DNA of 30,003 bases from a virus: positions 1 through 30,003 of the IMG/VR virus record IMGVR_UViG_3300021442_000221. One strand, given 5' to 3'. A model generated the notes under the pieces. It saw only the letters and a program-made list of their open reading frames with translations. It did no database searches and was not told the origin of the DNA. Within the stretch, counting starts at the first letter, position 1; the number at the start of each line of letters is the position of its first letter. This document shows, in pieces, positions 660 to 19,600 of the stretch. A program made the translations under genes and the position numbers.

Positions 660-1568
660 TTAGGTTAAGTTACTACCTGGATCGGTAGCATAAGTTGGTG
701 TTGGAACTGCAACGTTTACACCAGTTGGACGGAATTGTGTTATAATGCTTGAAAGAGTACCACTAACTAATTCATCAGTTGGAGTACCTGGGTCTGTAGG
801 ATCATCATCATTAAAATTGATTCTAAATTGCAATACATCAGGATTAGGTGTTGTATTTCCTTTTACTTCTATAATATAATGGTTTTCTGTATATTGACCT
901 GAACCTGCTTTATCAAATATTGATTGAAAACTTGTAGTAACATCATGATAACCAATAGATGAACCAGTACCTGATCCACCAATAGATGCTGTAGCTGTAT
1001 AGGTAAATTTTACTGTTTGCATATTAGATAATATTGTAGCCCAGTTAATTGATTTAGCTTCAGCTGGAAATGATGCAAGATTTGCCGAAAAACGGATTTC
1101 GCCGCCAGCATTGAAAAAATGTCTTGCGTGATCACTATCTGTAAATGTTACATTTAATAGATGATCAAGTTGACCGTTCCAAGAAGTAGTATACTGAGCT
1201 TGAATAGCCGCTTCAGCAGTACCTTGATTTACATCAATATTGAATTTTTCATTTTCTAATGTAGTAGTTAAACTTTCATACTGAGCAACACCTTTTTTAT
1301 TAATAGCGTTATCATCTTCAATTACATCAGTTGTGGCAATAAGAGCTATATCACTAGGTGCAGTATTTGTTTGGTGTTTTCTACCTGCGGAAATGTCATT
1401 AAAAAGCAACGCCATATGTGTTGCTGTTACTGTTTCAGCCGCGGCAACTTGCGAACTGTTTAGAGCTTGGCCGTAACCATCGTCTCCGGAACCTGTTCCC
1501 ATAATGGTTGCAACACGACTCTGTAAATTGTTGTGTCGAGCCGCTGTGATAATATCGCCAACTGCCAT
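660..1568 (-). CDS. Putative virion structural protein (302 aa)
   Basis: A 302-residue protein with an N-terminal block (MAVGDIITAARHNNLQ, then GTGSGDDGYGQAL at about 24-36) that I recognise from virion proteins of marine T4-like phages. The rest is rich in Thr, Ser, Asn and Gly with alternating beta-strand character, including a glycine cluster (GGSGTGSS) near residue 200 and a Pro/Asp/Thr-rich section near 260-265. No enzymatic motif, signal peptide or membrane segment is visible. It follows the 502-residue fibre gene by only four bases, and its ribosome-binding site (AAAGG, about nine bases before ATG) lies inside that gene, so the two are probably co-transcribed. A role as a tail-associated or fibre-accessory protein is inferred from position and composition. 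The exact role is unknown. Confidence 0.72.
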   Translation of the reverse strand: MAVGDIITAARHNNLQSRVATIMGTGSGDDGYGQALNSSQVAAAETVTATHMALLFNDISAGRKHQTNTAPSDIALIATTDVIEDDNAINKKGVAQYESLTTTLENEKFNIDVNQGTAEAAIQAQYTTSWNGQLDHLLNVTFTDSDHARHFFNAGGEIRFSANLASFPAEAKSINWATILSNMQTVKFTYTATASIGGSGTGSSIGYHDVTTSFQSIFDKAGSGQYTENHYIIEVKGNTTPNPDVLQFRINFNDDDPTDPGTPTDELVSGTLSSIITQFRPTGVNVAVPTPTYATDPGSNLT

Positions 1569-1572
1569 GTTC

Positions 1573-3081
1573 TTATACCTTTAATATACATTCTACTAGT
1601 TTTTCAGAAGTACTAGTATTTGATTCGAGGGCAACACCTACGATCATTGCTGAATTTTCAATTATTGTAGTAGCTGTTCCTGAAGGTCCTGCGTAAATAT
1701 TCATTCCTTTAGTAACTGCGCCAATTACTCTTACTGGAACTCGTCCTTTAAGTGCAACATTTTGTCCATCAGCATCTGAATTCATTAAGTATGCTGGGTT
1801 TTCACTAATAACACCTACTGGTGCTGGTGCAGTAAATCCTAATTCTTTATTTTCGTTTGTTACATTACACGCTTCAAGTTCTGAACCTGTACCGTGTCCT
1901 GATACTGAAACTACTGTACCAAACGCATATTCTTGGTCAGTTGTATATTTCTCTGCCAAGTCAGCATATTGTGCCGCTGTAGCTGTACCTGTGAATAAGT
2001 TTGCAAATAAATTACCGCTACCATCTCTAACTGCAACTGTATTATTAGTTGCGGCAGTATCTGCGGATCTAAAATTAGCACCTACTTTAAGTGTTTCAGC
2101 TTGTGAAGCCAATCCTGTAAAAGCAGTTGAATAAACATTTGCAAATTTTAATGTTGATGTTCCTAAAGTAAATATATCTGTTATTGGTGGATACATTCCT
2201 ACGGCAGTAATTGTAAGAGGTTCTTTAACAGCTCCTACATCATCATCAACTTTAAATTTAATTTTTGTACCAACTTGGTTTTGTATAACACCTTCATTAT
2301 CATTCTCAATATAAATCTTCATGTCATTGGAATCACCAATGGCAATACCAGCATCTGCGAATGTTGTTAATGATGTAAATGCACCTGATCCTGCAAGAGC
2401 AAAATCTGTGTCAGCTTTACCGTTTAATAGTAAGGCGTTACTTGCAGTTCCCCAATAAAAGTCTGTTGAACTAGTTACTCCACCTGTTGCGTTTGTTGTA
2501 TTACGTAATGTTAAGCCCTTTTTAATACTATCAAAACCTGTAATAGCGTTAGTTGGGTCTGTTGAGTCAATTGTAAATGCTACTGAACTAATAATAAAGA
2601 TTACTTCATCATTTACCGTTGATTTAATAATAATTCTGTTTACACTAGTAGTATCACGAACCGTTGAAGTAACCATTTGTGAAACAGTAGCGCCAATACC
2701 TTGAGGTCCTATTAATACATATCCTGACCCGTTAAAAGCATATAATTGTTCATTTGCAGAATCCCACCATAAATCACCAGTGGCTAATCCTGCTGGAGCA
2801 GTAGTGGCAACTTCAGCACCGCCTGTAGTTCTAAATTTAGAACCATCATAAAATTTTAATTTACTTGATGTTGCATCAAACCAAATTTGCCCTGAAATGG
2901 CTTTTGGAGGTTGTGCCGCACCACTAAAATTTTCTAGTATATGTAAGAAATTCTCATTTTGAATTTCGCCGTATCCTGCATAGTTTTTACCTACTAATTT
3001 AATGTCAGTAGTTTGATCAACTGTACCGTCTTCTACGACTACTAGTGTTACACCACTATATCTATCTATTGTATATGCCAT
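1573..3081 (-). CDS. Fibre-like virion protein with ADLAEKY-type C-terminal domain (502 aa)
   Basis: Residues 1-128 form the platform shared with the two upstream paralogs: GKNY at 31-34, ENF at 50-52, GQIWFD at 64-69, then GDLWWDSANEQLY and a closing GP. A second shared region reaches about residue 235. The middle is beta-rich and contains an LGTSTLKFANVY motif that also occurs, diverged, in the 677-residue paralog. The C-terminal 135 residues start at YADLAEKYT (about 368-376), a sequence widely seen at the start of C-terminal domains of phage fibre proteins; some such domains are related to autoproteolytic chaperones, which I cannot confirm here. A late-promoter-like element and an AAGGGG ribosome-binding site precede the start at 3081. 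It probably acts as a baseplate- or fibre-associated receptor-contact protein. Confidence 0.78.
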   Translation of the reverse strand: MAYTIDRYSGVTLVVVEDGTVDQTTDIKLVGKNYAGYGEIQNENFLHILENFSGAAQPPKAISGQIWFDATSSKLKFYDGSKFRTTGGAEVATTAPAGLATGDLWWDSANEQLYAFNGSGYVLIGPQGIGATVSQMVTSTVRDTTSVNRIIIKSTVNDEVIFIISSVAFTIDSTDPTNAITGFDSIKKGLTLRNTTNATGGVTSSTDFYWGTASNALLLNGKADTDFALAGSGAFTSLTTFADAGIAIGDSNDMKIYIENDNEGVIQNQVGTKIKFKVDDDVGAVKEPLTITAVGMYPPITDIFTLGTSTLKFANVYSTAFTGLASQAETLKVGANFRSADTAATNNTVAVRDGSGNLFANLFTGTATAAQYADLAEKYTTDQEYAFGTVVSVSGHGTGSELEACNVTNENKELGFTAPAPVGVISENPAYLMNSDADGQNVALKGRVPVRVIGAVTKGMNIYAGPSGTATTIIENSAMIVGVALESNTSTSEKLVECILKV

Positions 3082-3101
3082 ACTTTAACCCCTTGTAAGT
3101 A

Positions 3102-3109
3102 TATTTATC
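3102..3109 (-). promoter_or_regulatory. Late-promoter-like element before the 502-residue fibre gene
   Basis: The minus strand reads GATAAATA followed by TAC, seven of eight matches to the T4-type late consensus TATAAATA. It sits 20 bases before the start codon at 3081, in the 33-base gap between two fibre genes. An AAGGGG ribosome-binding site stands between it and the start. Transcription starting just downstream would give a very short leader. Confidence 0.5.
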
Positions 3110-3114
3110 ATTTA

Positions 3115-4971
3115 TTACCATAACCCACCGCTGGATGGCGGTTCATCAAGGAAAACCCATGCTGTACCTACAACGTGAAATCGTCTTAATCCTCTGTCTA
3201 ATACCACTTGTACAGTACCACTTGCGGCAGTAAATGCAATATCTTGCAATACACTTTCGTTCTGTACACCATTTGAGTCAACTGCTATAAATGATTTTGT
3301 TAAAACTGGTGTATCTACATTAATTCCGCTTACAGTTGCTCCTGTTATTGAAGAAGTTATTATATAAGCATACGTACCTGGTTTCTTATTTGCCGCTGGA
3401 TATACATCCTCAATTATTGTAGCAATTTCGGCATTCGTTAATGTTACTCCGCCTGCTTTTGATATATCTAAACTCATAACAACTGGTTCTAAGTTGATCT
3501 GATCATCTACATAAAACTTTGTTGCCGCATCTTGATTTAGTGTTGGATCAGCTAATCCTGTAATTTTTTGATTATTTGTAATAGCAATAGACCCTGTACT
3601 AGTAATTTGTAGTCCACTAGTACTAGTTGAAACAGTATTTCCATTAAGCGTAATATCATCAACACTTAAAGTAGTAAGTGTACCTACTTGCGTTAGGCCA
3701 GTTGCTTTAGTTACTGTTACACCTATTTCTGTTTTGTTTATTACTGGTTCACCTTCAGCATAATAACCTTTTGTTGCGGCTATATTAAGATTTTCGCTTG
3801 ATGTCCAAGATCCTTCTGATGCTGGGTCGAAAGGTGAGAGTGAATTGTTTAGCCATACAAATTCTTTATCTAATTGTGATGATTTAAGTATTATACCTCC
3901 ACCATCTACTCCAGCATTATCAAGTACAGTACTATCACTCGTTACTGCTAATTCAATATTTTTATCTTCTATTCTTAAATTCTGTGTTTCTACAAAAACC
4001 GAAGCGCCACCTACTAAAAAGTCGCCTTCAATTTTCATATCACCCCCAACGTGGAGTGCATATTGTGGATCTGATTTAAAAACTCCGAAATGCTCTTCTG
4101 ATGTATCAACTACTAACGCATCAATAAAGCCTGTTGGTTTTCTAACTCTAACTTTCCAATCATGATTAGATAATTGATTTTCAGTAACAAACGATGTACC
4201 TACTACTTTTAAAATATTATTTTGTGCTAACCCAATAGTAAGTCCACTTGAGTTTTGTATCGTTAATGCACCAGTTGTAGTTGCTGAAGCATCTGCAGGT
4301 AAAAATTGTGACGCTGATTTAACATTTCCAAACGCATCTCTTAATGCACTAGCTTGGTCGGCAATTCCTCGATATCTAAAATCCTCAATACTAACAGGCG
4401 TAAAACCTTTTTTAATTTCTCCAGTTATACCAGAAATAGCAAATCCTGTTGCCGGTGTAAAATCGGAATTACTCCACACACCAACAATAGTTCCTGCAAT
4501 AAAATATTTCATCACAACATGACTATTATTAAATGTATCTATAAGTGTAGCAATTTCGAATCCACTTTTACCTTGTGTTTTAGTATAGATCGGCCCAGCT
4601 AATTCTAAATCACTTCCATCATAAAAATAAAGTTGATTATTATCACTATCAATCCAAAGATCGCCAGCAACTAATGAACTTGGTTGTCCAGACTGAACTG
4701 CTGGTGCACCACTAGTTCTAAATCCAGTACCATCATAAACTTTTACTCGTTGTGTTGCTGTATCATACCAAAGTTGACCAATTAAAGGATTACTAGGAGC
4801 AGATGACTTTGAGAAGTTCTCAAGCATCTTAATTAAATTTTCATTTAATGCTTCACCAAATCCTGAATAGTTTTTTCCAATTAGAGATATATCAGTTGTT
4901 GTAGTATCTAATTGACCGTCAACTAAATCAACTAATAAACTTCCATCGGATTTGTTTAACTTATAACTCAT
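3115..4971 (-). CDS. Fibre-like virion protein with KIxGLADP repeat motif (618 aa)
   Basis: The N-terminal platform matches its two neighbours: IGKNYSGFGE at 31-40, MLENFS near 49-54, GQLWYD at 65-70, GDLWIDSDNNQLY near 103-115, then a second shared region ending near residue 228 (SASQFLPAD). Next come beta-rich segments (YALHVGGDMKIEGDF) of the kind found in trimeric fibre shafts. At about 470-488 is KITGLADPTLNQDAATKFYV, a motif common in phage tail-fibre shafts. The C-terminus is a compact domain ending in FHVVGTAWVFLDEPP and a short Ser/Gly/Trp tail. The start overlaps the stop of the upstream paralog by one base (TAATG), so translation is probably coupled. It has no tail-collar domain, unlike its 677-residue neighbour. 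The fibre role is inferred from shared motifs and position. Confidence 0.8.
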   Translation of the reverse strand: MSYKLNKSDGSLLVDLVDGQLDTTTTDISLIGKNYSGFGEALNENLIKMLENFSKSSAPSNPLIGQLWYDTATQRVKVYDGTGFRTSGAPAVQSGQPSSLVAGDLWIDSDNNQLYFYDGSDLELAGPIYTKTQGKSGFEIATLIDTFNNSHVVMKYFIAGTIVGVWSNSDFTPATGFAISGITGEIKKGFTPVSIEDFRYRGIADQASALRDAFGNVKSASQFLPADASATTTGALTIQNSSGLTIGLAQNNILKVVGTSFVTENQLSNHDWKVRVRKPTGFIDALVVDTSEEHFGVFKSDPQYALHVGGDMKIEGDFLVGGASVFVETQNLRIEDKNIELAVTSDSTVLDNAGVDGGGIILKSSQLDKEFVWLNNSLSPFDPASEGSWTSSENLNIAATKGYYAEGEPVINKTEIGVTVTKATGLTQVGTLTTLSVDDITLNGNTVSTSTSGLQITSTGSIAITNNQKITGLADPTLNQDAATKFYVDDQINLEPVVMSLDISKAGGVTLTNAEIATIIEDVYPAANKKPGTYAYIITSSITGATVSGINVDTPVLTKSFIAVDSNGVQNESVLQDIAFTAASGTVQVVLDRGLRRFHVVGTAWVFLDEPPSSGGLW

Positions 4972-4973
4972 TA
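4969..4973 (-). promoter_or_regulatory. TAATG stop/start overlap between fibre paralogs
   Basis: The stop codon of the 677-residue gene and the start codon of the 618-residue gene share one base. The upstream ribosome-binding site is weak (AGAAG only), so re-initiation after termination is the likely way the second gene is translated. Confidence 0.7.
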
Positions 4974-7004
4974 TACTTCTTCCACTACACCTGCATATAT
5001 AATATAATTTACTGCCATATATGGGTTCATAATATCAACAGGTTGCCCCAATGGTACCTGTTGCGTTGTTAATACTCCACCGCTTGTTGGATATGCTTGT
5101 CCGCCTGTGGCTCCGTCTAATGCACCATATACTATTGCTTCTGCATCATTTGGTGATCCAGGAACTTTTCTATAAGCATAATATTGGTCTCCACTATCAC
5201 CTCTTAAATCGTGTTCGTGTTCTGGCAAGTTTCCAAGTCCAACTTCTTGTGTTTCTGATCCTGCGTGTGTTCCCATATTATCAGCCGCTGAACTTGAAAC
5301 AGTATTAGCCGCTGTTCCGCCCATGTCGTCAATACCTAATGGAAACCTACCTCTCATATCTGGTAAGCAGAAAAATCCTGCTGTAACTAATGTTTGATCT
5401 TTAAAATTATAACCAATAATACTAAACAAATTTTGATACAATGCAACAGCAACTTCACGTCCATCACAAAGTAACCAATCTTGCGGAGCAGTTAATCCAC
5501 CATATGGACTAATCATTCCAATTGGCATTGTTGGAATTGAAGCAAATAAGTTATTTCTATTAACTTTAAATACGCCAGTGTCTCCACTTATTCTATTAAT
5601 TAATATTTCGTCATCAACTTGACTAAAAGCACTTTCATCTTTATTAGCAATAAAACTATTTGCAATAGATGTAGTAAATGTTTTAGTACTCTCGTCTTGT
5701 CCGTCAAAACTAAACGATGGTGCTGAAACATCTCCAGTCATTTGGAACGTTGTTGGACTTGCAAGTTTATCTGCTGATCCCGAACGCCCACTAACTGTAC
5801 CTGTAATATTACCTGTTAAATTACCAACAAATGTTTGTGCATAAACGTTTAACCATTGTTCATTTGACGTTCCTAGATTACGTGCTAATGTTAAATTAGG
5901 AACAATGTTTTGTGTTGTAAGTAATCCTGCAACATTAGAATCTCCGCCAACAAATAATTTTTTCGCAATTCCTACGCCGCCTTTAGTTGTAATACTTCCT
6001 GTACTAATCGTTGACGCCTCTGTAGTTCCTTCAACTAGTAATGAACTATCAGTTTGAATGTTACCAACAACATCTAATGATTGGTCTGGTGATAAATTAT
6101 TAATACCTACTTTAGCTTGTGAATCAATTCTAATTACTGTTTTTACGTCACCAGCATCATTAACCCTAACATCAATATTTGATCCTGAAGTTTGGTGGGC
6201 AATGATTCCTGCTTGACCTTCTACGCCAATTGATAATGCACTATCGGCACCAACAATGATACCTGAATTATTTTTAATTTTAAGTGGAAATAAACTTGTA
6301 CTGAGTACATCATTTCTTAAGAAACTTGATGCCGGTACGCTATCTCCAAGAACAAGTAAGTTCTCTGCTTTTTCTGCCGTACCATAATATTTTCCAGTAC
6401 CATCACCTGTAATGTCTGCTGTACTTAAATTATATCCTGGATTAATTGTAGTAAATCCAGTAATAACAATCTTTGGTGTAAAACTATCTGTTGAAATAAT
6501 TGCAAGTATTTTTGCTCTAACTTCTACTTTTAAAACTGTATAAGAAACATTATCAGTTCCAATAAGAACTGTTGGCTTTACGCCAGTTGATAATCCATCA
6601 CTAAATGACGGACCTACTAATATCCATCCTGAACCTGTATAAAGATAAAGTTGTTGGTTATCAGTATCAACCCATAAGTCACCTACAACTGATTGATTAG
6701 CGGCAGGTTCGTTTGTTGCTTTTTTTAATCCACTTGCAGAAATCCAATTTGTACCATCAAAGATTTTTAACTGGTTAACTCCTACTGTAGTATCATACCA
6801 AAGCTGACCTTCTACAGGATTTCGTGGTGATGTATTAAAAGCAAAATTTTCTAGTAAGTGTAAAAAGCTATCTGCAATAGCTGTACCATAAGCCGTAGTA
6901 TTACGTCCAGGAATATCTAAACTAGTAACCTGGTTAATTGTATTATCTTCAACTGTAATAGTACCTTTATTTGCTAGGTCAGTATGTGATACTAGATATG
7001 CCAT
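4971..7004 (-). CDS. Tail fibre-like protein with phage tail collar domain (677 aa)
   Basis: The shared platform occupies residues 1 to about 240 (ENF at 52-54, GQLWYD at 66-71, GDLWVDTDNQQLY, and ASSFLRND at the end). The middle carries shaft-type motifs: VGINNLSPDQSLDVVG, GGVGIAKKLFVGG and NLTGNITGTVSG. Residues about 489-565 form a tail collar domain (PIGMISPYGG, WLLCDGR, FCLPDMRGRFPLGID), the family found in T4 short tail fibre gp12 and many host-contact proteins. After it come LGNLPEHEHD (about 588-597) and a terminal MNPYMAVNYIIYAG, both usual in collar-type tips; HxH motifs bind metal in T4 gp12. The gene follows the 204-residue gene by four bases with a GAGG ribosome-binding site in that gene. 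It is the best candidate for direct receptor contact in the window. Confidence 0.88.
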   Translation of the reverse strand: MAYLVSHTDLANKGTITVEDNTINQVTSLDIPGRNTTAYGTAIADSFLHLLENFAFNTSPRNPVEGQLWYDTTVGVNQLKIFDGTNWISASGLKKATNEPAANQSVVGDLWVDTDNQQLYLYTGSGWILVGPSFSDGLSTGVKPTVLIGTDNVSYTVLKVEVRAKILAIISTDSFTPKIVITGFTTINPGYNLSTADITGDGTGKYYGTAEKAENLLVLGDSVPASSFLRNDVLSTSLFPLKIKNNSGIIVGADSALSIGVEGQAGIIAHQTSGSNIDVRVNDAGDVKTVIRIDSQAKVGINNLSPDQSLDVVGNIQTDSSLLVEGTTEASTISTGSITTKGGVGIAKKLFVGGDSNVAGLLTTQNIVPNLTLARNLGTSNEQWLNVYAQTFVGNLTGNITGTVSGRSGSADKLASPTTFQMTGDVSAPSFSFDGQDESTKTFTTSIANSFIANKDESAFSQVDDEILINRISGDTGVFKVNRNNLFASIPTMPIGMISPYGGLTAPQDWLLCDGREVAVALYQNLFSIIGYNFKDQTLVTAGFFCLPDMRGRFPLGIDDMGGTAANTVSSSAADNMGTHAGSETQEVGLGNLPEHEHDLRGDSGDQYYAYRKVPGSPNDAEAIVYGALDGATGGQAYPTSGGVLTTQQVPLGQPVDIMNPYMAVNYIIYAGVVEEV

Positions 7005-7008
7005 TTAC

Positions 7009-7623
7009 TTACGCCTCATTAAAGCCAGTTAGACTTTGTACCCTTACGGTATAATCTATTTGAATTAATCTATTTAAACTCTTTTGCACTGGATGGAAAA
7101 CTACATGAGTTAATAATCTACCAGTACCTGAAGTTGCATAACTTACAAGTCCTAACTCATCAAATACATAAAGGCTTTCACTTCCTGTTGCATTATCAAT
7201 TGCATCTTGTCCGTTAGGTTCACCATAATCTAATAAACAAGTTGCTAAAATGTCTGTATAATTTGTACCACTAACATGGCGAGTTTCTAGCTTATTTCTT
7301 GTAGGATCTGTATTGTTAATCGAATTATCGTCAATTACTTTAGTATGTGTTTGACTGTATAAACTAGCGTTAGTACCTGTTGAATTTGGTGACAAATAGG
7401 TAATAATACCAGTTGGATCAACAGATGTTCCTCCGTTGCCAAAAACCATGCTATTAATAAACCCTTGACCCTGGTTCGCTAGACTTTCAGCTAACGCAAG
7501 ACTCATGTTTTCATAATGAATTGCATTTCGCTTATTCACTAATATTTCACCCGAGTCTGGGTCAAAAATCTTAATGTGTCCTTCTAAAAGTACACCGTTT
7601 TGTTCATTAAAGTTGTCTATCAT
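7009..7623 (-). CDS. Putative virion structural protein (204 aa)
   Basis: A 204-residue protein beginning MIDNFNEQNGVLLEGHIKIF. I recognise its central pattern (GQGFINSMVFGNGGTSVDP at about 52-70, followed by ITYLSPN) and its C-terminal beta segment (LLTHVVFHPVQ, then IQIDYTVRVQS) as typical of a structural protein in marine T4-like phages, located between the giant protein and the fibres. No enzymatic motif or membrane segment is seen. It starts 22 bases after the last base of the giant gene's stop codon, behind a late-promoter-like element and a TAGGA ribosome-binding site. Position suggests it links the baseplate rim to fibres, a role filled in T4 by gp9-gp11, but no sequence match to those is evident. 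That assignment is only inference. Confidence 0.75.
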   Translation of the reverse strand: MIDNFNEQNGVLLEGHIKIFDPDSGEILVNKRNAIHYENMSLALAESLANQGQGFINSMVFGNGGTSVDPTGIITYLSPNSTGTNASLYSQTHTKVIDDNSINNTDPTRNKLETRHVSGTNYTDILATCLLDYGEPNGQDAIDNATGSESLYVFDELGLVSYATSGTGRLLTHVVFHPVQKSLNRLIQIDYTVRVQSLTGFNEA

Positions 7624-7641: not shown

Positions 7642-7649
7642 TATTTATT
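7642..7649 (-). promoter_or_regulatory. Late-promoter-like element before the 204-residue gene
   Basis: The minus strand reads AATAAATA, followed by CACTTG, seven of eight matches to the T4-type late consensus. It overlaps the stop codon of the giant gene (7645-7647) and lies 18 bases before the start at 7623. A TAGGA ribosome-binding site is placed between. The location fits an internal late start that would decouple fibre expression from the very long giant transcript. Confidence 0.5.
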
Positions 7650-10600
7650 TAGGTAACGTTGCCTCTGCACTTCTTAAGAAACGCCCTATGTTATTTTCCT
7701 GTCTATGTAACGGAACTCCTGAATCTGTCCAGGTTCTTCCGAGCTTTCTCACCACTATAATTTTACTATTAATAGCTGGTGTATTTAATAATATTACTGT
7801 CGACGTTGTCCCATCTACACTAAATTCAGCAGGTAAAGTGATATCTGCTTCAGGACTGTCTAAATCAACAGTTTTATCAAATGAACTAATTGAAACTTTG
7901 CGTAATCTCTTGCCTGCTACAAAGATCTCAAATTCATTAACGGTTTTTGGGATAAAATCAACAGTTACAGCATTCGTTGATCCATCCGCTTCAAAAACCT
8001 GCGTTAATATTTCGTCTTTATATGGTACTGTTTGAGTTGCACTCTGATCAAATAAATCTGACCCTGCTTTGTGTAACTCTGCAACACCTGTACCTAAAGT
8101 ACCTCTACGTAATTGCCTAATGGCTCCGCCTTCCTTCAAATAGTACTCTATACGTTCGCCATTTATAAAAATTATTCCTGGTATACCTTTATCCTTATTA
8201 GGAAGTGGTAAATTATCATAATTTGTTACATAAATTCGACTATCGTACCAATGTAAATCTTCTGCTAATGTATATTTATTACTATCTCCAAGACGCTTAT
8301 AGTGTGTTCGGTTTAACATATCTTTAAAGATTCTGAATCCAAATTTTGGAACAATAACAGGATTAGTAAAATGAATCACTTCTATCTTATCATCAGGGTC
8401 AATATCACTTACAATTTTAATATGTTTTCTATCATCAGTAACATAATAATCAATACTTGGAGTTAATAATACCTTATTTAATGTAACCCATACATATTCA
8501 GCATCAATGGCTTCTTCACGTAATCTAACTATTCCATTAGTTAATTGATGGAATTCAGTATAACCATCTGTTCCAACTGTAACAGCATTTCTAGCCACAA
8601 CATCAAATGTTTCTCTTTTAATTTTTCTAATATCATGCTTACTAAATTTATATATTGTAAGTTTTACACCAAAAGGTGGTGGAGTATCTAAATAAACATC
8701 ATCTGGTGTTTTAACAAATAAACTTGTACCAACATCAAAATATCCAAGTTGATAATCACCACTATCAACAATAAACACTTCTAATGTATCTCCATTTACT
8801 CCTACATCATCAAACAACACAACCGATCCGTTAAAGGTATCCCAACGCCATTTTGTATTAAGTTCTATCGCAACACCATTCAAATAGACTAGAACATTAT
8901 TAGCACCAAATGTTGCTGTTGCAAGTTGCCATTCTCTTAATTGGTATTCACGTTGTGGTACAACTGTAAATTGTTGATTATATCCTGCATTCAAAATCTC
9001 ATTACCAAGTTTAACGATAATATTATGACTTTCTGGTTCACTAGTGAACGGAGTTTGACTTAAAGTAAATTTAGTCGTTACAGCATTACCAACAAATTCA
9101 TCTGTTGTTACTTGACTAAACACTTGACTAGTACTATCATAAATTACATACTGAATGATTGCTCCAGGATCTGGAATCGTTCCTAATTTAAATACTGCCC
9201 TACCAGGAACTTCATATGTAGCATCTGTTTCTGATAAATCAGTAGTTACTGTTTCACCATCTACTGTTAATGTATATGTTAGTCCTAATTTATAAACTAC
9301 CGGTGTTACAAATTGTGACGTTGAACCATCACCTATAAACTTATCTAAGTCAAGAATCTTTTCACCATTATTAGACATTGTTGAAATATGTACTAGTTCA
9401 TTAAGCTGTGGTACAGTAACTAATTCTACTTGTTTAGTTTGATAATTTACAGTATATTCTGTAGTATCTAAAATTATTCCATTTACTTTTACAAATAAAT
9501 CTTTTTGACTTGCTGGCAATTGGTTAATAGGAAATTTACTAATTGATCCATCCCCAAAGTAATTATGACTACTAATAATACACGAGCCATCCGCAGTTCT
9601 ATCATAAACTCTAAAATCTACAGTATCCATAACTTGTCCTGGAATTAATTCTTCAGGACCTTTAGAAGTTAATGGAGTAATAAACCCATCACCATCAACA
9701 ACAATTTCTTCTGACAAAAGTCCTTTAGCTGTTTGGTAAGCTAAATCGCCACCTTGTAATGCTGTATCATAAGCATCAGGATCTGGAATAAAACTACCGT
9801 CACTAGTTGCTTTTCTAATAATAATAACATCACCATCAACTGTTGGTATTAATTCTTCATTTAAAGTAATTGTTTGTGTAACGCCGTCGCCTGTAATTGT
9901 TTGCATAACTGCACTAGGATTACCAGGTACAGTACTGCCATCATATTCTGGATCGTCTACTCTAACACCATTTTTGTATACATTATAAAGTACACCATCT
10001 GCTAATGGTTGAGCAAGATTAAAAATATTTGTGCTTCCATCTAGCTGAAATACTTCGTCTTCAAATGTATTATCAAAAGTATCCCAAGTTGATGTAAACC
10101 AAGGTTCTGAAAACCAACCTGCGCCTCCACCAAAGTCAAAGCTTCTAACTTCTACACCACCATAATCAATACCTTCCATTAATTGTGATATATCGTTCCC
10201 TAACATTCCGTCAGTTGGTTTATAAAATAAATTAATACGATCTTGTGCCTGAAGCATATCAATAGCTTTACTATATTTGACTACTATTGAGGCTAAATTA
10301 GCTGGAGGTTCTGTAAAGAATATTTGTCCTCTATATCTTGTATATGATTTGTCTGTATAAGCAATATTTTTAAAAGTATATTCGCTTGTTAATAACTCAA
10401 CGTCATTAATTGTAATATAAATTTGACTAGGTCTTACATCCATTGGCCATTTTAAATCAACCTTTTGTTTACTTGCATTACCAGTAAAGGATTCTGTTTC
10501 TTCAAGAGTAGTAATTAAAAATGCTCCACTAACTCTATCAAATCTTGATATAATGTGAGCACTACGTATTTTTCCATTACCAAGTTTTGCAGAAACAACT

Positions 10601-13600
10601 GCTGGTTTACTACCTTCTGATTGTGTACCATTAACTGTAACTGTCGGTGCTGATAGATATCCTGAGCCAACATTTGTTAACTTAATCCAAGTAATTGCTC
10701 CGCCGACACCGATATATGCTTGTGCCTTGGCTCCTGTGCCGCCGCCTCCACTTATTGTAATAACTGGAACTTCAAGAAATCCTGTGCCGCCATCTTTAAT
10801 TTGAATCATTACAACTTCATACCCTAAATTATCTTTCCAATGTTTGTTTGGATAATTTACAAGTCCAGGATCTACACCATATAACACATCATCTTTAATT
10901 TTTAATGACGATGGTATAATTTTTCCAGCTTCTGTTTTATAAGCTGGTGGTAAATCAAAATCAGTTGTTATTGAATTAGTATTATCAAATTTTGTATAAG
11001 AAGTTAAGTATTCTCTAATCTTTGTTTTATAAGGTTTAGCTTCTCCAACAAATGCTTCATAACTTGGAAGATTATCATTTTGGAAAGTAACTTTTTCAGC
11101 TAACTCTCCAATATTATGCTTTGCCTTAATGAAGCTTGTTTTAAATGCCCAATCAACAAATTTTTGTTCTGAAAATACATAGCGTAAACTTGCTATGAAT
11201 AATTTATTATATTCTACTGCAAGATCATCTATAAAAATATCATCACGTAATGCTTCTAAAATTAATCTGAATTCGTGTACTGGTTGATTATCATAATCAC
11301 TTGTATCATAACTTAAACTATCATAACCTATATTCCAAGTTGGATAATTATATAGACTTGATGCAAATTTAATTGTTCCGTTCTGTCTACCAACTGTTTC
11401 ATAATTTGTAGTGTAATCTGCATCTACTACGCTATTAATTTTCTTTAATAATAGCCAACCGCCTGTACCAACTGTTTTAATTTTAACAATATCACCAATA
11501 TCATCATCTAAAGATGTTAATAGATAACTTTCATCAATTAGATAATCAACGTTTGTAAACTGATTATAATCTATCGCATACCAATCAATATAACCCCAAA
11601 AATCAGGAACATTATACGCTTGACTGTCTGTTCTTTCCCATAATGTGTTAGCAGTATTATAAGCATGAATTGACCATTTACCAGTAATATTTTCATCTGC
11701 TTTAACAAGTGTACTATATCTTCTAACTATTAATCCAGTATCGTTAGGATAATTTCTTCCGGCGTGTTTAACAGTTACACTATTAACTTTTCCTAGAGTA
11801 TCAATTGTTAAAATAAGTTCTGCGGCAGTACCATTCCCAATGTTAACAAATTCATATGTTGGTGGTACTTTATATCCTCTACCACCATCAGCAATTTCAA
11901 CTCGCTCTAATCTGCCATTTAGCCAAATAGGTGTTAATACTGCTTGTTTAATATTTGCAGTACCTACATAAACAATTTCTGCATACGTATCAACTGATTG
12001 ATCGAACTTACCAGAATTTAACGTTGGTATTACATCAACTTCTTTTAACTTACTAAGATCATATTCATCAACGATAATATGTTGTTTAAGAACTCTATTA
12101 ACTCGTTCAATAACTTCTTTTACTGCTTCAAGCCGATTTACAAACCAACTTTGTCGCGGACTATTTAATGAACCATATTTTTGTTTAGGACTTAAATCAG
12201 TATCAGGTACTGCTCTATAATTTGTATCCCATCCTATTAAACTATCAAACCACTTACGTTCTACATCAGCTTTAGGTCTACTTGTGTCTAATCCTTCACT
12301 TAAAACTTGATATTCATTATGAATATTATTTGGATTCTCAATAGTCCAGTAACGGAAATTAACTGCTGAATTTACATCATTGAATAAAGCATCAGTATTA
12401 TATAATGCAAATCTATTATCTGCTAATAGAGCCGCGAACTTATATCCTTGAGCTTTAGGATCTTCAATTAATTGTGCTACATCATATGCACTTGTTTTTC
12501 TCCACTCCTTCTCAGAAGGAATAAATTTTCTATTTTTAACCCAATAGTAAAACTTATTTGAAAAAGACTGTGCCGCTTTATTATAAACTCTAGTTGATAC
12601 TAAAGTATTATCATCAAACCTAGGTACTCCGCTAATTCCTTTTGATAAACCTTCTTCAGTATCTGCTTGTTCAAGCCATTGTGAAGGTAAAAGCTCTGTT
12701 TCAACCCATTCGTAAACATCAATTGAAGAACCTTTAAATAATTTATTCCAATTAGCAGTTTGATAAATTATACTTCCTTGATAAGGATTATGATATTTTA
12801 CTGTACTTAAATCCCACCAAAGTCTTCCAACATAGTTTTTACTCCAATAATTTGACGTATCAACATTAGACGGTGCTGTACCAATTGTATATACTGCTGG
12901 ATCATATAACGTTTTAAATGATATTTCTTCTTCAGCTATACCGGAAATTTTTCCTTGTATTGGATCAATATAATCTATTTGAGAACCTAGCTTATTTGTT
13001 TCTGTATCGTAAATAAACACGCCTCTGAACTGTTTTAGGTCAACTTGGTCAAGTGGTGAACGTAAAGTTTGCCACGACAAAACATTTCTTTCGCGTCTAA
13101 AATCAATTATTGTTCCCTGAAAATTATCAGTTGGTGTTATAGTTAATTCGGGCATTGCCACATAAACATGATTATCTGTAAATAATAAATAATCACCAAA
13201 ACGTCTTGTTACAGGATTATTAAAAACAAATTTTTCACTATACAATAATGTATTATTAAATCTTTGGAAAATAAGAACTTGGCCACTATCTTCATTAACA
13301 ACTTTAAACTGAGTAAGATTATTATCCCAGGACGTAGGTACGATTGTAATATTTGCATCAAATGTTGTAGATGCTATAAGATCTCCACCACGAGATGAAA
13401 CAGCTAAATTGTTTTTATCAAAGTCTAGTGTTGCTCCAAATCTTTCCGCTACATCAGTTTCTGGACTATAAAGTGTTTGTGACCATATGAAGCTACCTGC
13501 CTCTTGTATATAAACATAAACAGCGCCATTATTAGTCTCTACTTCATCTTGGAGTGGTGCACCAATGGCAATTAAAGTTCCATCGTCTGAAACTGCAACA

Positions 13601-16600
13601 GCTGAACCAAATCCTATACCTGCTACCGGTGTTACAATTTGTTGGCTAAATTCATAGTGTCCGTTGTTTAATCTATAAACAAGTACTTTAGGATCACCAC
13701 TAGTATATTCAGCTACAACAACTAAAATATTTCCATCTCTATTAGTTGTAAATGGACCAAAATTTGCAAGAAGACTTTGATCAAGAATAGTTTCGTCGTC
13801 AACTGTTAACCCTAAATCATTAGGAATATATCCTATATAATCTATATGCGATGATAATTGTGTCCAAAGTGATGGACTCCAAACACCTGCCGGTAAATTA
13901 GTTTTACTTTGCCAGAAATATTCATCATATAAAACAATATCATTTTCATAGTATGCTTGAGCTACATCAAATACACCTTTATAATCTTTATCTTTTCCAG
14001 TTGCATAATCGAATACTTCTCCAGTACTATCAGTACCATGATTAAACAAGTATACCCTACCAGGTGAACCAAATGACCCTGGATCGTGCGTACCAACATA
14101 AAGATAATGTAATAATCCATTTGTAGCAAACTCTATTTGGTCGCCAAATTCTGTACCTGTAGCCGTATGTTCAGAAATATATCCGTGGTTTAATGAATAC
14201 TCTCCATTAGCAGTCTTATCATAAGTTAAAATGATACCACAGTCGTCTTTATCATTGACAACACCTTCTGCGTGTGCAGGAATATTATATTGTTGTAACC
14301 AGTCTTTGTTTAGTGGTGTTGGATAATTAGGTATTCTAGCAATTCCACTAACTTCACTGCTAGAATAAAAATGTACTTCTAATTCATTTTGAAAACTCGG
14401 CGAAGTAACTGGTAACTGAGCTGAATCCGTGTTCTTAACAACCACCATCTTACCTGTAGCCGTACTATCCATATCCGCATGATCTAATCTCCCAGATAAA
14501 CGATTGACGCCAGGGCTAATAGCATCTTTTATACTAATAGTACTTGTTGCACTATTATTAAATCCGAAACTAAATGTTCCAGCTCGACCAGTTACAAATA
14601 CTCTAGCTGTTAATAATTGTTGTTGTATATACGTAACTGTAGCTTCAGCACCTGTAGTATTATCAATAATAACTTGATTTTCTAAAGGAACATAAGGATC
14701 ACCACTTAAATCAAAGTTTGTAAATGTTATATCAATATATCCTGACCATAGATCAAAAATTGTATGAGTTGAATCATTGAGATATGTAAATGTTAAACCT
14801 AATGACGCAGGATCAAAAACTGAAATAGGATCAACCCCTCCTCTAATAGTATTAACCCACATTTTAAACTCATCATCTTTATCAGCTAAATCTGTAAAAG
14901 TTTTAGGTGCTCTTACAAACCAAAGTTCACTTAAATTCGGTAATCCAAGTTTATCATAATAACTTAAATGTCCTAGTCTGCCGCCTCTTGTTGGATCTGT
15001 AATAAGACTTAATGCACGAACATCATCCATTGTATTACTAAACGGAACTGGTGATCTTGATTCACTTGAAGTTATAAAATCTTGACCTATAATATTTGGT
15101 ATTGCAATTTCTTGTGCTTCGTTTACAGTTGTAGTAAACGTAGGTATTCCGTCAATCCTCCACCATCCGCCAAATACTTCTGGGTGTGTGCCTGGTTGAA
15201 CTTTTTCAAATGTTCCACAACTTACTGCGTTTAAGAAAATTTCATCTGTAGCAAGAAATTCTCCACTAACATCTTTCATATAAATTATTGCTTGACTAAC
15301 ATTTTCAATTCGAATATATTGTACTTCACCAACGGCTGTAGCCGACGATAGTGAATCTCCAACAGTTGGAATGCGTATTAAATTGTCAACATATAAAATA
15401 GCATCAATTTTTGCCGCAATAACTTTTTGACCTTCTATTGCCGCAACACCTGGACCTGTTGCACCCCACGGTAAAATACCAGTTGGATAATTTTGTGAAA
15501 ATTCTTGCCAGTTAATAATTACTTTATCATTTTCAGCTGATCCATTATATTGTTCAACTGGAGCTCTAATTAATATGTGATCTGTAGTAACATCTAATCC
15601 ATAATCACCTCTTATAGCATAAACTATTTTTGGATATGAATTGCTTAAGGCATCATAATTTGCTTCGTGAATAAATGACGTTGAATAAAAACTAGGAAAT
15701 AATAATGCACCAGTTGCCGCCGCTATATCAAATTGTGCTTCCCAGAAAGCTTCTAAATACCTAACAATGTCACCAGTAACATAAGATGTTCCGCCATCAA
15801 AGTCACCTTTCCATTTAGTTCTTACATTACTAGCATGGGGAGCCCCAATAACTAAATGATTACCATCATCAGTTAATGCAACAGCTTGACCAAACTTTGC
15901 TGGTGGATCTCCAACATCACCATACAATTCTGTTGGAGCATCGATTGTTTGTCTATGAGTATAATCTACATTATCTGAAACTCTAGTAAACACATAAACT
16001 TTTTCGTATTCAGCGGCTGATACAATTAAAATTGTATTTCTTTGATCAGTCGCAATAACTTTACCAAATAAATGTCCTTCACCAGTGTTAACATTAGGAA
16101 TCTGTTGGAATGAACTATATGTTGGTTTATTTTCTAATACAACCCAACGTCCTTGATCATCATTATCAATCCAAATTAATTCACCTACGTTTAAGTGACT
16201 ATTAAGAACTCTAACATTTGCTTCTGCTACCGTGGCAACTCTAGCTGAAATAAATTTAGTAACAAATCCATCAGCTATTGGTACATCTTCTGTTGTACCA
16301 TTTGCATAACAAATAATATTTCCTAGAGAAACACTTTTAACTTTAAAGAATTTTTCTGCACCAGTAACATCAAGTACACCTATAATTTCATCTGCGTCAT
16401 ATACAGCTTGTTCATTAAGAGTTATTGTTGTTGTTCCGGCGTCATTATCTGAAGTTACTTGTACAACTCTGTCTACTGTTCTTACATACTTGAAAACATC
16501 CCATGATGTTCTATATTGACCAACCCAAATATAATTACCAACACTTAAATCTGTAATAGAAGCATTAAGAATGTCATCATATTTTGCAACTGTTAATTGA

Positions 16601-19600
16601 ACATCTTCTTCATTAACAAATCCTGCTGTTCGCACATATTCAAACTCTTTTGTATGTGTTGGAAATGGCTTATGATTATAACCATTTGGTTTTAAATAAA
16701 CTTCAAATGGTCGTATACGATAAATTAAATCTGTTTCTATTCCTGAAACAGTATCAACTAATTCGACTGGTTGAGGACTTAATTTAAATTTGCCTTCATC
16801 TAATTTAAATTCGATTTCATCAAATCCATCTGAAGACCCATATTGTCCTAACTTAACAGCCCACTCTTCATAAAAATCAATACTATCTTTATCTGCATTA
16901 CTTAAAGCATCAAACAGTTTTGTTAAACTATTTTGTGTACCTTTATCTTGAATAAATCCTTGATAAAATTTATACTGACTAACATCGTCATTAATAATGT
17001 TTGAAAGATACTCTCTTTTTTGATATCCAATAAGATGTTGGGCTATTACTTGCTGTTCTGTATCAAAATTATCTGTATCTAAATCATAATAATCTTTAAA
17101 TTGTTTTGCTTTATAATCTAAGTTGGGTCTTAATACAGAAGTAGGTTTCTTACTTAACCGCTCCCATAAAGAAGCATCAAAAGACTCTGCTCCTTCGATT
17201 TTTTGTTTAGCAAGATAATAAAATTCTTTATATTTTACTGTATCACCAACAGCATATTTTTTATATTCAGCCCATTCAGTACAAATTGCATTATCATAAA
17301 CAAACCCTGGAATATTTAAACTTCCATTCCAATCATCTGTACGATAACCTATAACTTTAACTCGTTCTTGTCTATATCCTGGTTCTAAATCATATATTAT
17401 ATCATTAAAAACAGTATGGTTGTCTATTAAAACAACGTGTTCTTTTTGTATTAATGGTAACTTAACAGCATATACACCATCAGCACTATTTTTTGCTGTA
17501 ATTTTAAATTCACCTTCAGCACCTCTATAAACATCAATAAATTCTTTTAATAATTTTGTCCCGTCAGCTTTTAAAAGTGTGTAGTCATAAAAACTATCAA
17601 AAATATTATCCGAAACATGAAGTTCTCTTTTAAATGATAAATGATTACCGGCTGGACTTAAAGTTATTACACTATTATCAGCCCAATTCTGTGTAGTCCA
17701 GAATAAAAATTCTTTAGCACTTAACTCCCAATTTTCAACTAAATTAATATCGGGATTAAAGAAATTAAAATCAAACCCTTTAGATTTTAACCAATGTCCA
17801 TAACCTAATAAGAAGTCAACAACACCTTGAATGGTTGTAAATAAAGTACCATACGAAATTTCTTTTATACTATTAATAAGAGGAGGTGTCTGATCAAACT
17901 GACGTCTAAAGAACGCATCACGTCCACCACTTATAGGTAATTCAGCTAATTTAACAAAGTTAGTAGCTTCAAAATCTACATCAGCATCATGTGATGTCTT
18001 AACAGTAAAATATTCATTATCAAATTCAACAATTTGTCCTTCAAGATACTTCTGACCGGCTTGCCATCTAACAAAACTTTCAGAAACGCCTCCAACATTT
18101 ACTACTGGATCATCTGATAACTCACGAACCTTAAAATATTTAAAATATGGATTAGTAGAATCATACCCTCTTATAACAAATCCAGCAGGTTTCTTTTCAA
18201 TAATAACTCCGCTATAACTTACTAAATCAATAACTGAACTTGCATTTAAAAATACTTCATAATTCTCATCAGGAACAAAAACATTTCCTTCATTAAATGG
18301 ACTTCTACTATCTAATAATAGTTTAAATTTAGATTTCTGAGTAAACCCAGCAATTTTAAATCCTAATTGATTTTTAATTTGCTTTAACTCGGTTTTATAA
18401 GAAGTATAACTATCTACAGCCTGTGTATTAACAAAGTTAAAGATATAATTGATAAATCCAGCCGTAGATGATCTATCTACATCTAGATATGTATTTGGAA
18501 AAACTATATCTTTAAACCTAATTCTTTTATCAGTATTACTATAAACAATTTCATTTGCTAAATTTCTAACAGTTCGCGATCTATCAAACCCTAATCCCAT
18601 AATTTTAGCTGGTTGATTAAGTATCCAACTTACAATAAATGCAAAAGGATATTCACTACTTCTACGCCAAGCGGTTTCAGTTGGTGCTTCGTCACCAAAA
18701 ACAAAAGCATCATCAGTTAATGCAAGAACATAATTTTTAGCATAGTTACTATCTAACGGACTTAATAAATTACCTTCACCATCTACTGGAATATGTTTTG
18801 TAATATCTTTTCTTGCATACGCTGTAAGATATTTTAATGCTTTGCCAGGTTCTCTAACAATTCCATCTTCAACATCTTTCCATAAAATTTTATTTTCTCT
18901 AGTATATGGAGCTGGTCCATAAACTGTTTGCCACCATGCAGGCTCAATAGTATAACCTAATATTTCCCAGGGATGAGTATGCGGACGATCAGTATCATAT
19001 GCTTCTTTATAAATTGCTCTCCAGTATCCTGCTAATTGATTACCATTCGGAGATGTCATTTTACTATAATTAAATGTGAAACTATTTGTTCGTTGATAAA
19101 AACTATGATCAGTATAATCTAAATTACCAACATTGTTTAACCAACCTAGGAAGTCAGTAATTAAAGTCTTATCTCTATTCCATTTACTAAATCCTGTATC
19201 TCTACTGTCACCACCAATAAATTCATGAATATCTATTAATGTTTTATCATACTCTACTTTTATATTATTAAAAATTCTTTTTTCTAATTCTAATAAAAGT
19301 TCATCTCTATAATCTCCATAACAAACAAAAATATTACCATCATGACCTTGAATAACTTCTGTTGGTGTTTGATAGGTATTATCAATATATTTCTTTGGTT
19401 CATATTTAGGATACAATCCTAATTTAGATGGCGTTTCAGGAATATAACTTCCGTCAGATAACGGATATTCATAAATTTCAATTATATCATCTACAGCCTT
19501 AGTCGCTGTAATTGTAACAAACCCTGGATGATCTGTTTCAAATATATAATCAACACCATGAAGTAATTGAACTTTGTTTTTATAAATGTAAACAGACTGT

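Follow-up and report, generated by a model that had tools for sequence, protein, structure and literature searches.

Three tandem fibre paralogs on a common N-terminal base in an uncultured virus, and the exchange between lineages of the last domain of one of them

Introduction

At the periphery of the T4 baseplate, gp10, gp11 and gp12 are described as three sequential paralogous trimeric proteins (PMC3004832). We analysed a 30,003-base virus record, IMGVR_UViG_3300021442_000221 (the window, meaning hereafter this whole stretch of DNA), in which three adjacent genes on the minus strand, coding for proteins of 677, 618 and 502 amino acids (aa), are likewise sequential paralogs in a corresponding genomic place. 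As far as that account of T4 goes, its paralogs share the C-terminal fold, whereas the trio of the window shares an N-terminal base, called platform below, and its ends differ. A sequence-only reading of this DNA had proposed a duplication of the platform followed by replacement of the tips. The duplication idea is right, and the picture of three replaceable tips is not: in the clade of the window, only the last domain of the 502 protein is exchanged between lineages, for homologous versions of itself, and the ends of the 677 and 618 proteins go with the remainder of their genes.

Several fibres built on conserved N-terminal modules are also found in CBA120 and RaK2, whose branched fibres assemble through such modules, RaK2 gp530 removing a C-terminal chaperone of about 14 kDa (PMC10253068). 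These systems, as that source presents them, differ from the trio by other N-terminal domains, depolymerase bodies and a T5-type chaperone, and it describes no single base in three fixed copies. The domain mosaicism of phage fibres includes a shuffled intramolecular chaperone domain (PMC10684548), so that the principle of exchange is not new. The cases in that source typically concern non-homologous receptor-binding ends, whereas the exchanged end of the 502 protein is homologous, bounded by a predicted cleavage motif, and stands beside two stable paralogs. In the open-access literature we found no sharp exchange limit at a cleavage motif beside two stable paralogs, and a search there with the letters of the motif gave no phage paper among the matches listed. 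For the end of the 502 protein, the closest described relative is the pre-neck appendage gp12 of phi29, which resembles it in fold, in C-terminal position and in a D-x-x-E at the junction; gp12 is a neck protein with a Ser before the junction, whereas the 502 protein is a putative baseplate protein with an Ala, in which cleavage is predicted.

For the locus as a whole, the nearest described counterparts are in jumbo phages. In PA5oct, gp357 to gp360 belong to a collinear module with platform proteins, noted in the record as seen by electrospray ionisation tandem mass spectrometry (ESI-MS/MS), and gp359 has an end like that of the 502 protein, with YADLAE and a junction near residue 345; this cassette holds two platform copies as against three in the window, and the platforms of gp358 and gp359 are mutually nearest. 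Atu_ph07 gp176 and Phosso 292 resemble the window in their place behind a giant protein and a protein of about 200 aa, in their platform and in their YADLAE end, each phage having one full-length platform protein as against three.

Results

A common N-terminal base in three adjacent genes

The three open reading frames (ORFs) expected from the sequence-only reading were found exactly in place on the minus strand: the 677-aa paralog (A, 4971..7004), with a shared base and shaft over residues 1-431 and a Collar end; the 618-aa paralog (B, 3115..4971), whose ATG shares one base with the stop codon of the 677 gene and whose shared base covers residues 1-291; and the 502-aa paralog (C, 1573..3081), with a shared base over residues 1-294, a shaft up to residue 373 and an autochaperone-like end. 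Pairwise BLASTP within the trio gave 37% identity over 263 columns, 33% over 289 and 31% over 309 (E 5e-38 to 4e-35, single comparisons), and the other segments listed had an E of 0.33 or worse. Profile comparison aligned residues 1-291 of the 618 protein with 1-294 of the 502 protein (E 2.2e-51), and residues 1-431 of the 677 protein with 1-363 of the 502 protein (E 1.9e-51), ending just short of the ADLAE domain. The reach of this second match implies that the 677 and 502 proteins have shaft sequence in common too. The shared N-terminus, first put at about 240 residues, is thus real and longer, about 290 residues by profile (E 2e-51). The motifs named for the platform are present in the trio; in the 502 protein, the platform (residues 1-126, 2704..3081, minus strand) has a helix at 42-51, two GxxWxD repeats and a closing GP.

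Relatives were collected from 157 loci with a platform ORF, of which 121 were complete triplets, 82 distinct, and 54 remained once redundancy was thinned at 93% identity. In these 54 sets, mean identity over the first 128 platform columns was 0.66-0.75 within paralog groups and 0.39-0.46 between them. On a midpoint-rooted FastTree each group was monophyletic, with supports of 1.0, 0.994 and, for the 502 group, only 0.585. A platform profile run on the window matched these three genes only, and the groups, being 39-46% identical to one another, hold together as expected from the duplication of one platform, for which BLASTP, profile alignments and trees all speak; multiplication of the platform recurs in other jumbo phages. 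That the three proteins attach to the same or equivalent sites, as had also been suggested, is only indirectly favoured: in 24 of the 128 columns one residue is common to all three groups, at 90% or more within each (54 representatives per group), and 2 columns are fixed differently between paralogs.

The platform profile had no sequence match in the PDB up to an E of 5. In the AlphaFold2 (AF2) model of the 502 protein, residues 1-47 had a predicted local distance difference test score (pLDDT) below 50, and the fold search with this model gave weak matches for the platform: the Mtd N-terminal domain, with Z no higher than 4.3 over 40 residues, and CBA120 TSP3, with Z 5.1 over 37 residues. T4 gp9 and gp10 do not figure among these fold matches, an absence that carries no weight.

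Exchange is confined to the last domain of the 502 protein

Whole-end swapping among the three paralogs was considered and rejected. With a platform-only query, platform class and end class agreed in 211 of the 214 ORFs with an intact 3′ end, and the 3 exceptions were ORFs of 161-272 aa without an end. Within groups, the last 150 residues were detectably homologous in all 1431 pairs for the 677 and 502 proteins and in 1359 of 1431 for the 618 protein. The idea that no end was ever swapped, drawn from this homology alone, was overturned for the 502 protein by the distance data.

In the 54 sets, distances in successive windows of the 502 protein correlated at 0.76-0.87 with the N-terminal distances of the other paralogs up to residue 385; the correlation was 0.68 at 351-410 and fell to 0.37-0.49 from residue 376 on. 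Corresponding values were 0.67-0.88 along the 677 protein and 0.58-0.87 along the 618 protein. In a larger collection (121 distinct sets among 175 complete), nine regions intercorrelated at 0.78-0.91, but the 502 end at 0.40-0.55. At a mean identity of 0.54, this end is at least as well conserved as regions that do track.

Cluster changes were counted on trees omitting the tested protein, for the 115 of the 121 sets that had a complete downstream ORF (3 of the 115 exceed 1000 aa, hence are not the usual gene). The excess was 10-15 changes in windows 361-435 and 421-495 of the 502 protein, compared to 0-4 in the rest of it, 0-3 in the 677 protein, 0-6 in the 618 protein, with a peak in the shaft, and 0-3 in the downstream gene. 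When the tree was built without the 502 end, this end showed an excess of 9-15 at 10-30 clusters, and the 677 and 618 ends one of 0-1. At the nucleotide level, among 7260 pairs, the 502 end was more than 15 points closer than the upstream gene in 54 (drawn from 40 loci, so not independent) and more than 20 points further in 14; these counts were 0 and 0 for the 677 end, and 0 and 3 for the 618 end.

Individual pairs placed the limits of the exchanged segment. Between loci L146 and L132, identity is about 70% up to the ADLAE codons, climbs there to 97-100%, and drops back just beyond the ATG of the following gene. In the window these two limits correspond to the ADLAEKY motif (residues 373-379, 1945..1965, minus strand), which marks the left limit in relatives, and to the start of the gene for a 302-aa protein (660..1568, minus strand), whose counterpart sets the right limit in this pair. 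Between L157 and L141, identity goes from about 50% to 67-97% between motif and stop codon. Conversely, L021 and L033 have N-termini 98% identical and ends 61% identical, with near-copies in other datasets (L032; L035 and L036). Tip replacement therefore stands for the last domain of the 502 protein, through homologous versions, and falls for the 677 and 618 ends, which are inherited with their genes. The related proposal of a host-range cassette with replaceable tips fares alike: the end is decoupled from its gene for the 502 protein and not for the other two, and the decoupled domain may lie outside the virion.

The 502 end resembles a self-cleaving chaperone

The exchanged cassette corresponds to residues 374-502 of the 502 protein (1576..1962, minus strand), a Peptidase_G2/phi29-gp12-like domain. 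Peptidase_G2 (PF11962) matched 17 of 39 orthologs, with a best E of 7.6e-9. In the AF2 model of the 502 protein (mean pLDDT 66.8), blocks of the last domain scored 81-94, dipping to 64 at 411-420 and to 72 at the C-terminus. Residues 370-501 of the model superposed on residues 688-854 of phi29 gp12 (3suc) with Z 14.3 and a root-mean-square deviation of 2.1 Å over 111 aligned residues, and residues 374-501 on residues 692-854 of the fragment 3gqh with Z 13.7 over 107 residues, the latter match opening with D374 on D692. The mature phi29 protein, gp12*, is reported as modelled to residue 691 (PMC6542822). At the junction, phi29 S691-D692-F-A-E695 aligns with A373-D374-L-A-E377 of the 502 protein, so that cleavage is predicted between A373 and D374. 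ADLAE is present in all 121 distinct sets, both the junction Asp and the Glu three residues on being kept. The "pre-mature" 3suc chain has a Gln at 695, where phi29 and the 3gqh fragment have Glu695; we read this as the change that kept that structure uncleaved. The ADLAEKY end is probably a removable self-cleaving chaperone, to judge from the modelled fold, and its assignment as a third tip is doubtful, since the fold matches that of the phi29 gp12 self-cleaving chaperone with the motif on the cleavage junction.

When the 502 end alone was used as query, 80 loci were kept out of 309 stretches. A 502-type platform was carried by 71 ORFs; the 9 ORFs showing none comprised 3 that are cut at the 5′ side and 6 complete ones with other fibre N-termini (L304, L305, L310, L311, L323 and L326, match at 3001 onward). 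We observed MGLTRPRAHQLQDIDYKQ at or near the N-terminus in 5 of these 6. Within the 502 protein, the shaft stretch 276-300 is the least conserved bar the last partial window (mean identity 0.36, 17 representatives).

The ends of the 677 and 618 proteins

As the sequence-only reading had it, the three C-termini differ, being of Collar type (677), of no trusted fold (618) and Peptidase_G2/phi29-gp12-like (502). The Collar domain (PF07484) covers residues 496-555 of the 677 protein (5340..5519, minus strand; E 1.9e-15, 57 bits against a curated cut-off of 24) and was matched in 26 of 26 orthologs. It is followed by HEH at residues 596-598 (H596 and H598; 5211..5219, minus strand), an HxH being present in all 121 distinct sets. 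T4 gp12 also has a Collar domain and an HxH pair, and resembles the 677 protein in both. Gp10_C (PF21939) scored 14.6 bits in the 677 protein of the window, below its cut-off of 27 bits; at E 1 it matched 14 of 26 orthologs, with a best E of 9.1e-5, and PA5oct gp358 has a clear Gp10_C end (E 9.8e-24).

The end of the 618 protein (residues 485-618, 3118..3519, minus strand) had no trusted fold match: the best were the T5 tail tip 7zn2 at Z 4.2 and the DT57C straight fibre at Z 3.8. In its shaft, PF03906 matched 9 of 39 orthologs, and a "tail fiber gp9" chain was matched at E 3.5e-4. A mild excess of cluster changes, 2-6, was seen in relatives at residues 361-495 (window 3487-3891), and the length of the protein varies from 602 to 737 aa among relatives. 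On account of this mild excess and variable length, the 618 shaft may exchange pieces too.

Genomic setting, order and copy number

On the minus strand of the window lies a T4-type baseplate module, made up of a 633-aa protein, a gp5-type hub lysozyme, a gp25-type wedge protein, a gp6-type wedge protein of 1152 aa, a 4910-aa giant protein (7645..22377, minus strand), a 204-aa protein (phrog_11259; 7009..7623, minus strand) and the fibre trio, past which lie the 302-aa protein and one of 119 aa. The module is collinear with that of PA5oct; the giant protein holds the position of giant virion proteins of PA5oct, Atu_ph07 and Phosso, and the 204-aa protein that of PA5oct gp357. Among cultured phages, the gp6-type protein matched 62 records, the top ones being the jumbo phages SCTP-2, Atu_ph07, Phosso and PA5oct at 35-37% identity, and a megablast of positions 1-25000 gave no match, hence no near DNA relative. 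In IMG/VR, 478 stretches matched the 677 protein and at least 600 the 502 protein, the longest contig from the 677 search being 267,783 bases. The group, with its hundreds of matching stretches, consists of uncultured marine relatives of jumbo phages.

The promoter scan of the window gave a count below the mean of shuffles, and 5 terminator-like sites were found for a shuffle mean of 3.8. The 302-aa protein had no family match in Pfam, PHROGs or NCBIfam; by eye, its N-terminus resembles that of PA5oct gp360 (GTGSG..GYGQ). Also by eye only, the 4910-aa ORF contains GxLWWD- and MWFYNG-like stretches.

Gene order was scored at 236 loci, several of which share one contig. It was ABC in 195, ABCC in 1 and partial in 40 (BC in 15, C in 12, AB in 11, A in 2), all 40 being cut by the end of the stored stretch. 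B lay between A and C in all 196 loci holding both outer genes. We conclude that the triplication is old and fixed in the clade of the window. The only four-copy locus (L271:189-7746) codes for A, B, C and C proteins of 690, 612, 609 and 581 aa; both C copies have a YADLAE end, and they are 38% identical over their first 178 residues. In the 13 marine records searched whole, we found, besides the three copies of the cassette, at most two weak partial matches.

Outside the clade, one full-length platform was counted in Atu_ph07 (plus a weak partial match), in Phosso and in Hallingskeid, and a platform search of S-SKS1 gave none. PA5oct has the two platforms of its collinear cassette, gp358 and gp359, and a second tandem trio, gp316 to gp318 (L274:1425-6923), well away from the baseplate cassette; the platform match of gp316 begins near residue 250. 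ESI-MS/MS detection is given, in the notes of the PA5oct record only, for gp349, gp350, gp353 to gp355, gp357 to gp360 and gp316 to gp318, both platform paralogs of the cassette being among them. In Stenotrophomonas phage RAS14 (L163:10665-19342), six consecutive genes open with the platform motif and have different C-termini; they are annotated as hypothetical protein, one as D-alanyl-D-alanine carboxypeptidase.

Platform history across phage families

Platform trees with jumbo-phage rows were built on 129 columns and have several long branches. With IQ-TREE, the 618 and 502 groups were single clades (97/97 and 100/99), and the 677 group was not one resolved clade (4 changes; 2 in the tree with fewer rows). 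The platforms of PA5oct gp358 and gp359 were sisters (100/99), and platforms grouped by phage lineage, which end types did not. Two candidate platform clades were rejected by the approximately unbiased test (p-AU), the 502 group with PA5oct gp359 (7.7e-4) and the 677 group with PA5oct gp358 (5.3e-3), and p-AU was 0.026 for the 502 group joined by gp359, Atu_ph07 and Phosso, all three tests using fewer rows and a simpler model than the full IQ-TREE analysis. The platform trees thereby reject gp358 and gp359 as full-length orthologs of the 677 and 502 proteins, respectively. A, B and C as one clade were not rejected (p-AU 0.086 in the full analysis, 0.158 with fewer rows and the simpler model). 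The claim that platforms and ends have different histories therefore holds across phage families, by these tree tests, and not in the clade of the window for the 677 and 618 proteins. Platforms may have been duplicated separately and then given similar ends, or they may have been homogenised within each genome.

Discussion

Taken as a whole, we consider it likely that the locus encodes three baseplate fibres on a common base, two with stable ends (677 and 618) and one, the 502 protein, with an autochaperone that is exchanged. The trio would form fibres or spikes at the rim of a T4-type baseplate, each a trimer docking on the wedge through the common base of about 290 residues, with the 4910-aa or 204-aa neighbour as candidate partner; the separate roles of the three would predate the diversification of the clade. 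With its end of the T4 short-tail-fibre type, the 677 protein is the best candidate for surface contact, and the 618 protein would end in a small domain. The last domain of the 502 protein would register and fold the trimer, then cut itself off between A373 and D374, so that the mature fibre would end near residue 373 with the shaft as its distal part. Its coding DNA passes between lineages as a cassette with the ADLAE motif at one end and the beginning of the following gene at the other, and homology for crossing over would come from these two conserved sequences. A domain that leaves the particle would interact with little else, and so could be exchanged at low cost.

Several observations weigh against this explanation. 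Concerning the chaperone, the 502 protein of the window itself had no PF11962 match at E 5, and the AF2 models reach no more than moderate quality (mean pLDDT 66.8 for the 502 protein and 72.5 for the other model). Before the junction stands an Ala in every one of the 121 sets, where phi29 has a Ser, and in a T5-type chaperone, which is differently folded, a Ser-to-Ala change is reported to impede cleavage (PMC4690869); tailspike Dpo31, however, whose chaperone is phi29-like, likewise has an Ala at this position. Capsid decoration proteins share the fold of the 502 end, with Z up to 12.1, so that the domain could stay in place. Concerning the exchange, the excess of cluster changes for the 502 end is only 1 at 6 clusters and the signal appears from 10 clusters up; L146 and L132 are each a single contig in the set, so that this one case could be an assembly chimera; and the L033 protein is identical in three IMG datasets, which may not be independent of one another.

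The main rival is host-range selection on the last domain of the 502 protein, which would stay on the particle as a distal receptor-binding or decorating tip and be exchanged because it sets the host range. The decoration-protein fold, the invariant Ala in place of the phi29 Ser and the fact that this end is the sole one exchanged between lineages are all in keeping with a retained tip. Against it, the junction Asp and Glu are kept in 121 of 121 sets. The ratios of nonsynonymous to synonymous changes (dN/dS), a rough pairwise count on saturated, recombining sequences to be used for ranking only, also speak against it: the last domain is at 0.385, below its own shaft (0.565, the highest of nine regions) and below both parts of the C-terminal half of the 618 protein (0.53), the base being at 0.133. 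The same domain moreover ends the six complete fibre ORFs without this platform. We regard a retained tip as rather unlikely.

We hold it very improbable that metagenome assembly, or saturation in a domain this short, has mimicked an exchange. The domain is indeed only about 129 residues long and the clearest recent case, L146/L132, depends on single contigs, but windows of equal length in the 677 protein, the 618 protein, the rest of the 502 protein and the downstream gene give no signal to this extent, L021/L033 have near-copies in other datasets, and the domain is no less conserved than regions that track. Ordinary host-range evolution, in which the platform was duplicated and all tips were replaced in turn, is the least credible of all: it would suit three different ends on one base, the varying number of platform proteins in other jumbo phages and the differing histories of platforms and ends between families, but it is refuted within this clade, where, over 121 sets, the ends of the 677 and 618 proteins track the background, and where platform class agrees with end class.

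If the 502 protein does end in an exchanged autochaperone, we tentatively suggest that this domain may behave as a mobile module with an intein-like logic: because it would fold the fibre and then cut itself off, it could be traded, and sit on unrelated fibres, with the mature virion left unchanged. In such a scheme the catalytic motif might possibly double as a handle of homology for recombination, the start of the next gene serving on the other side.

Two things commonly merged as "tip swapping" are separated here, the apparent adhesin ends being stable and the domain that moves resembling a disposable folding helper. If this is true, exchanged fibre C-termini would not be directly readable as host-range determinants, and annotating the 502 end as a receptor-binding tip would mislead.

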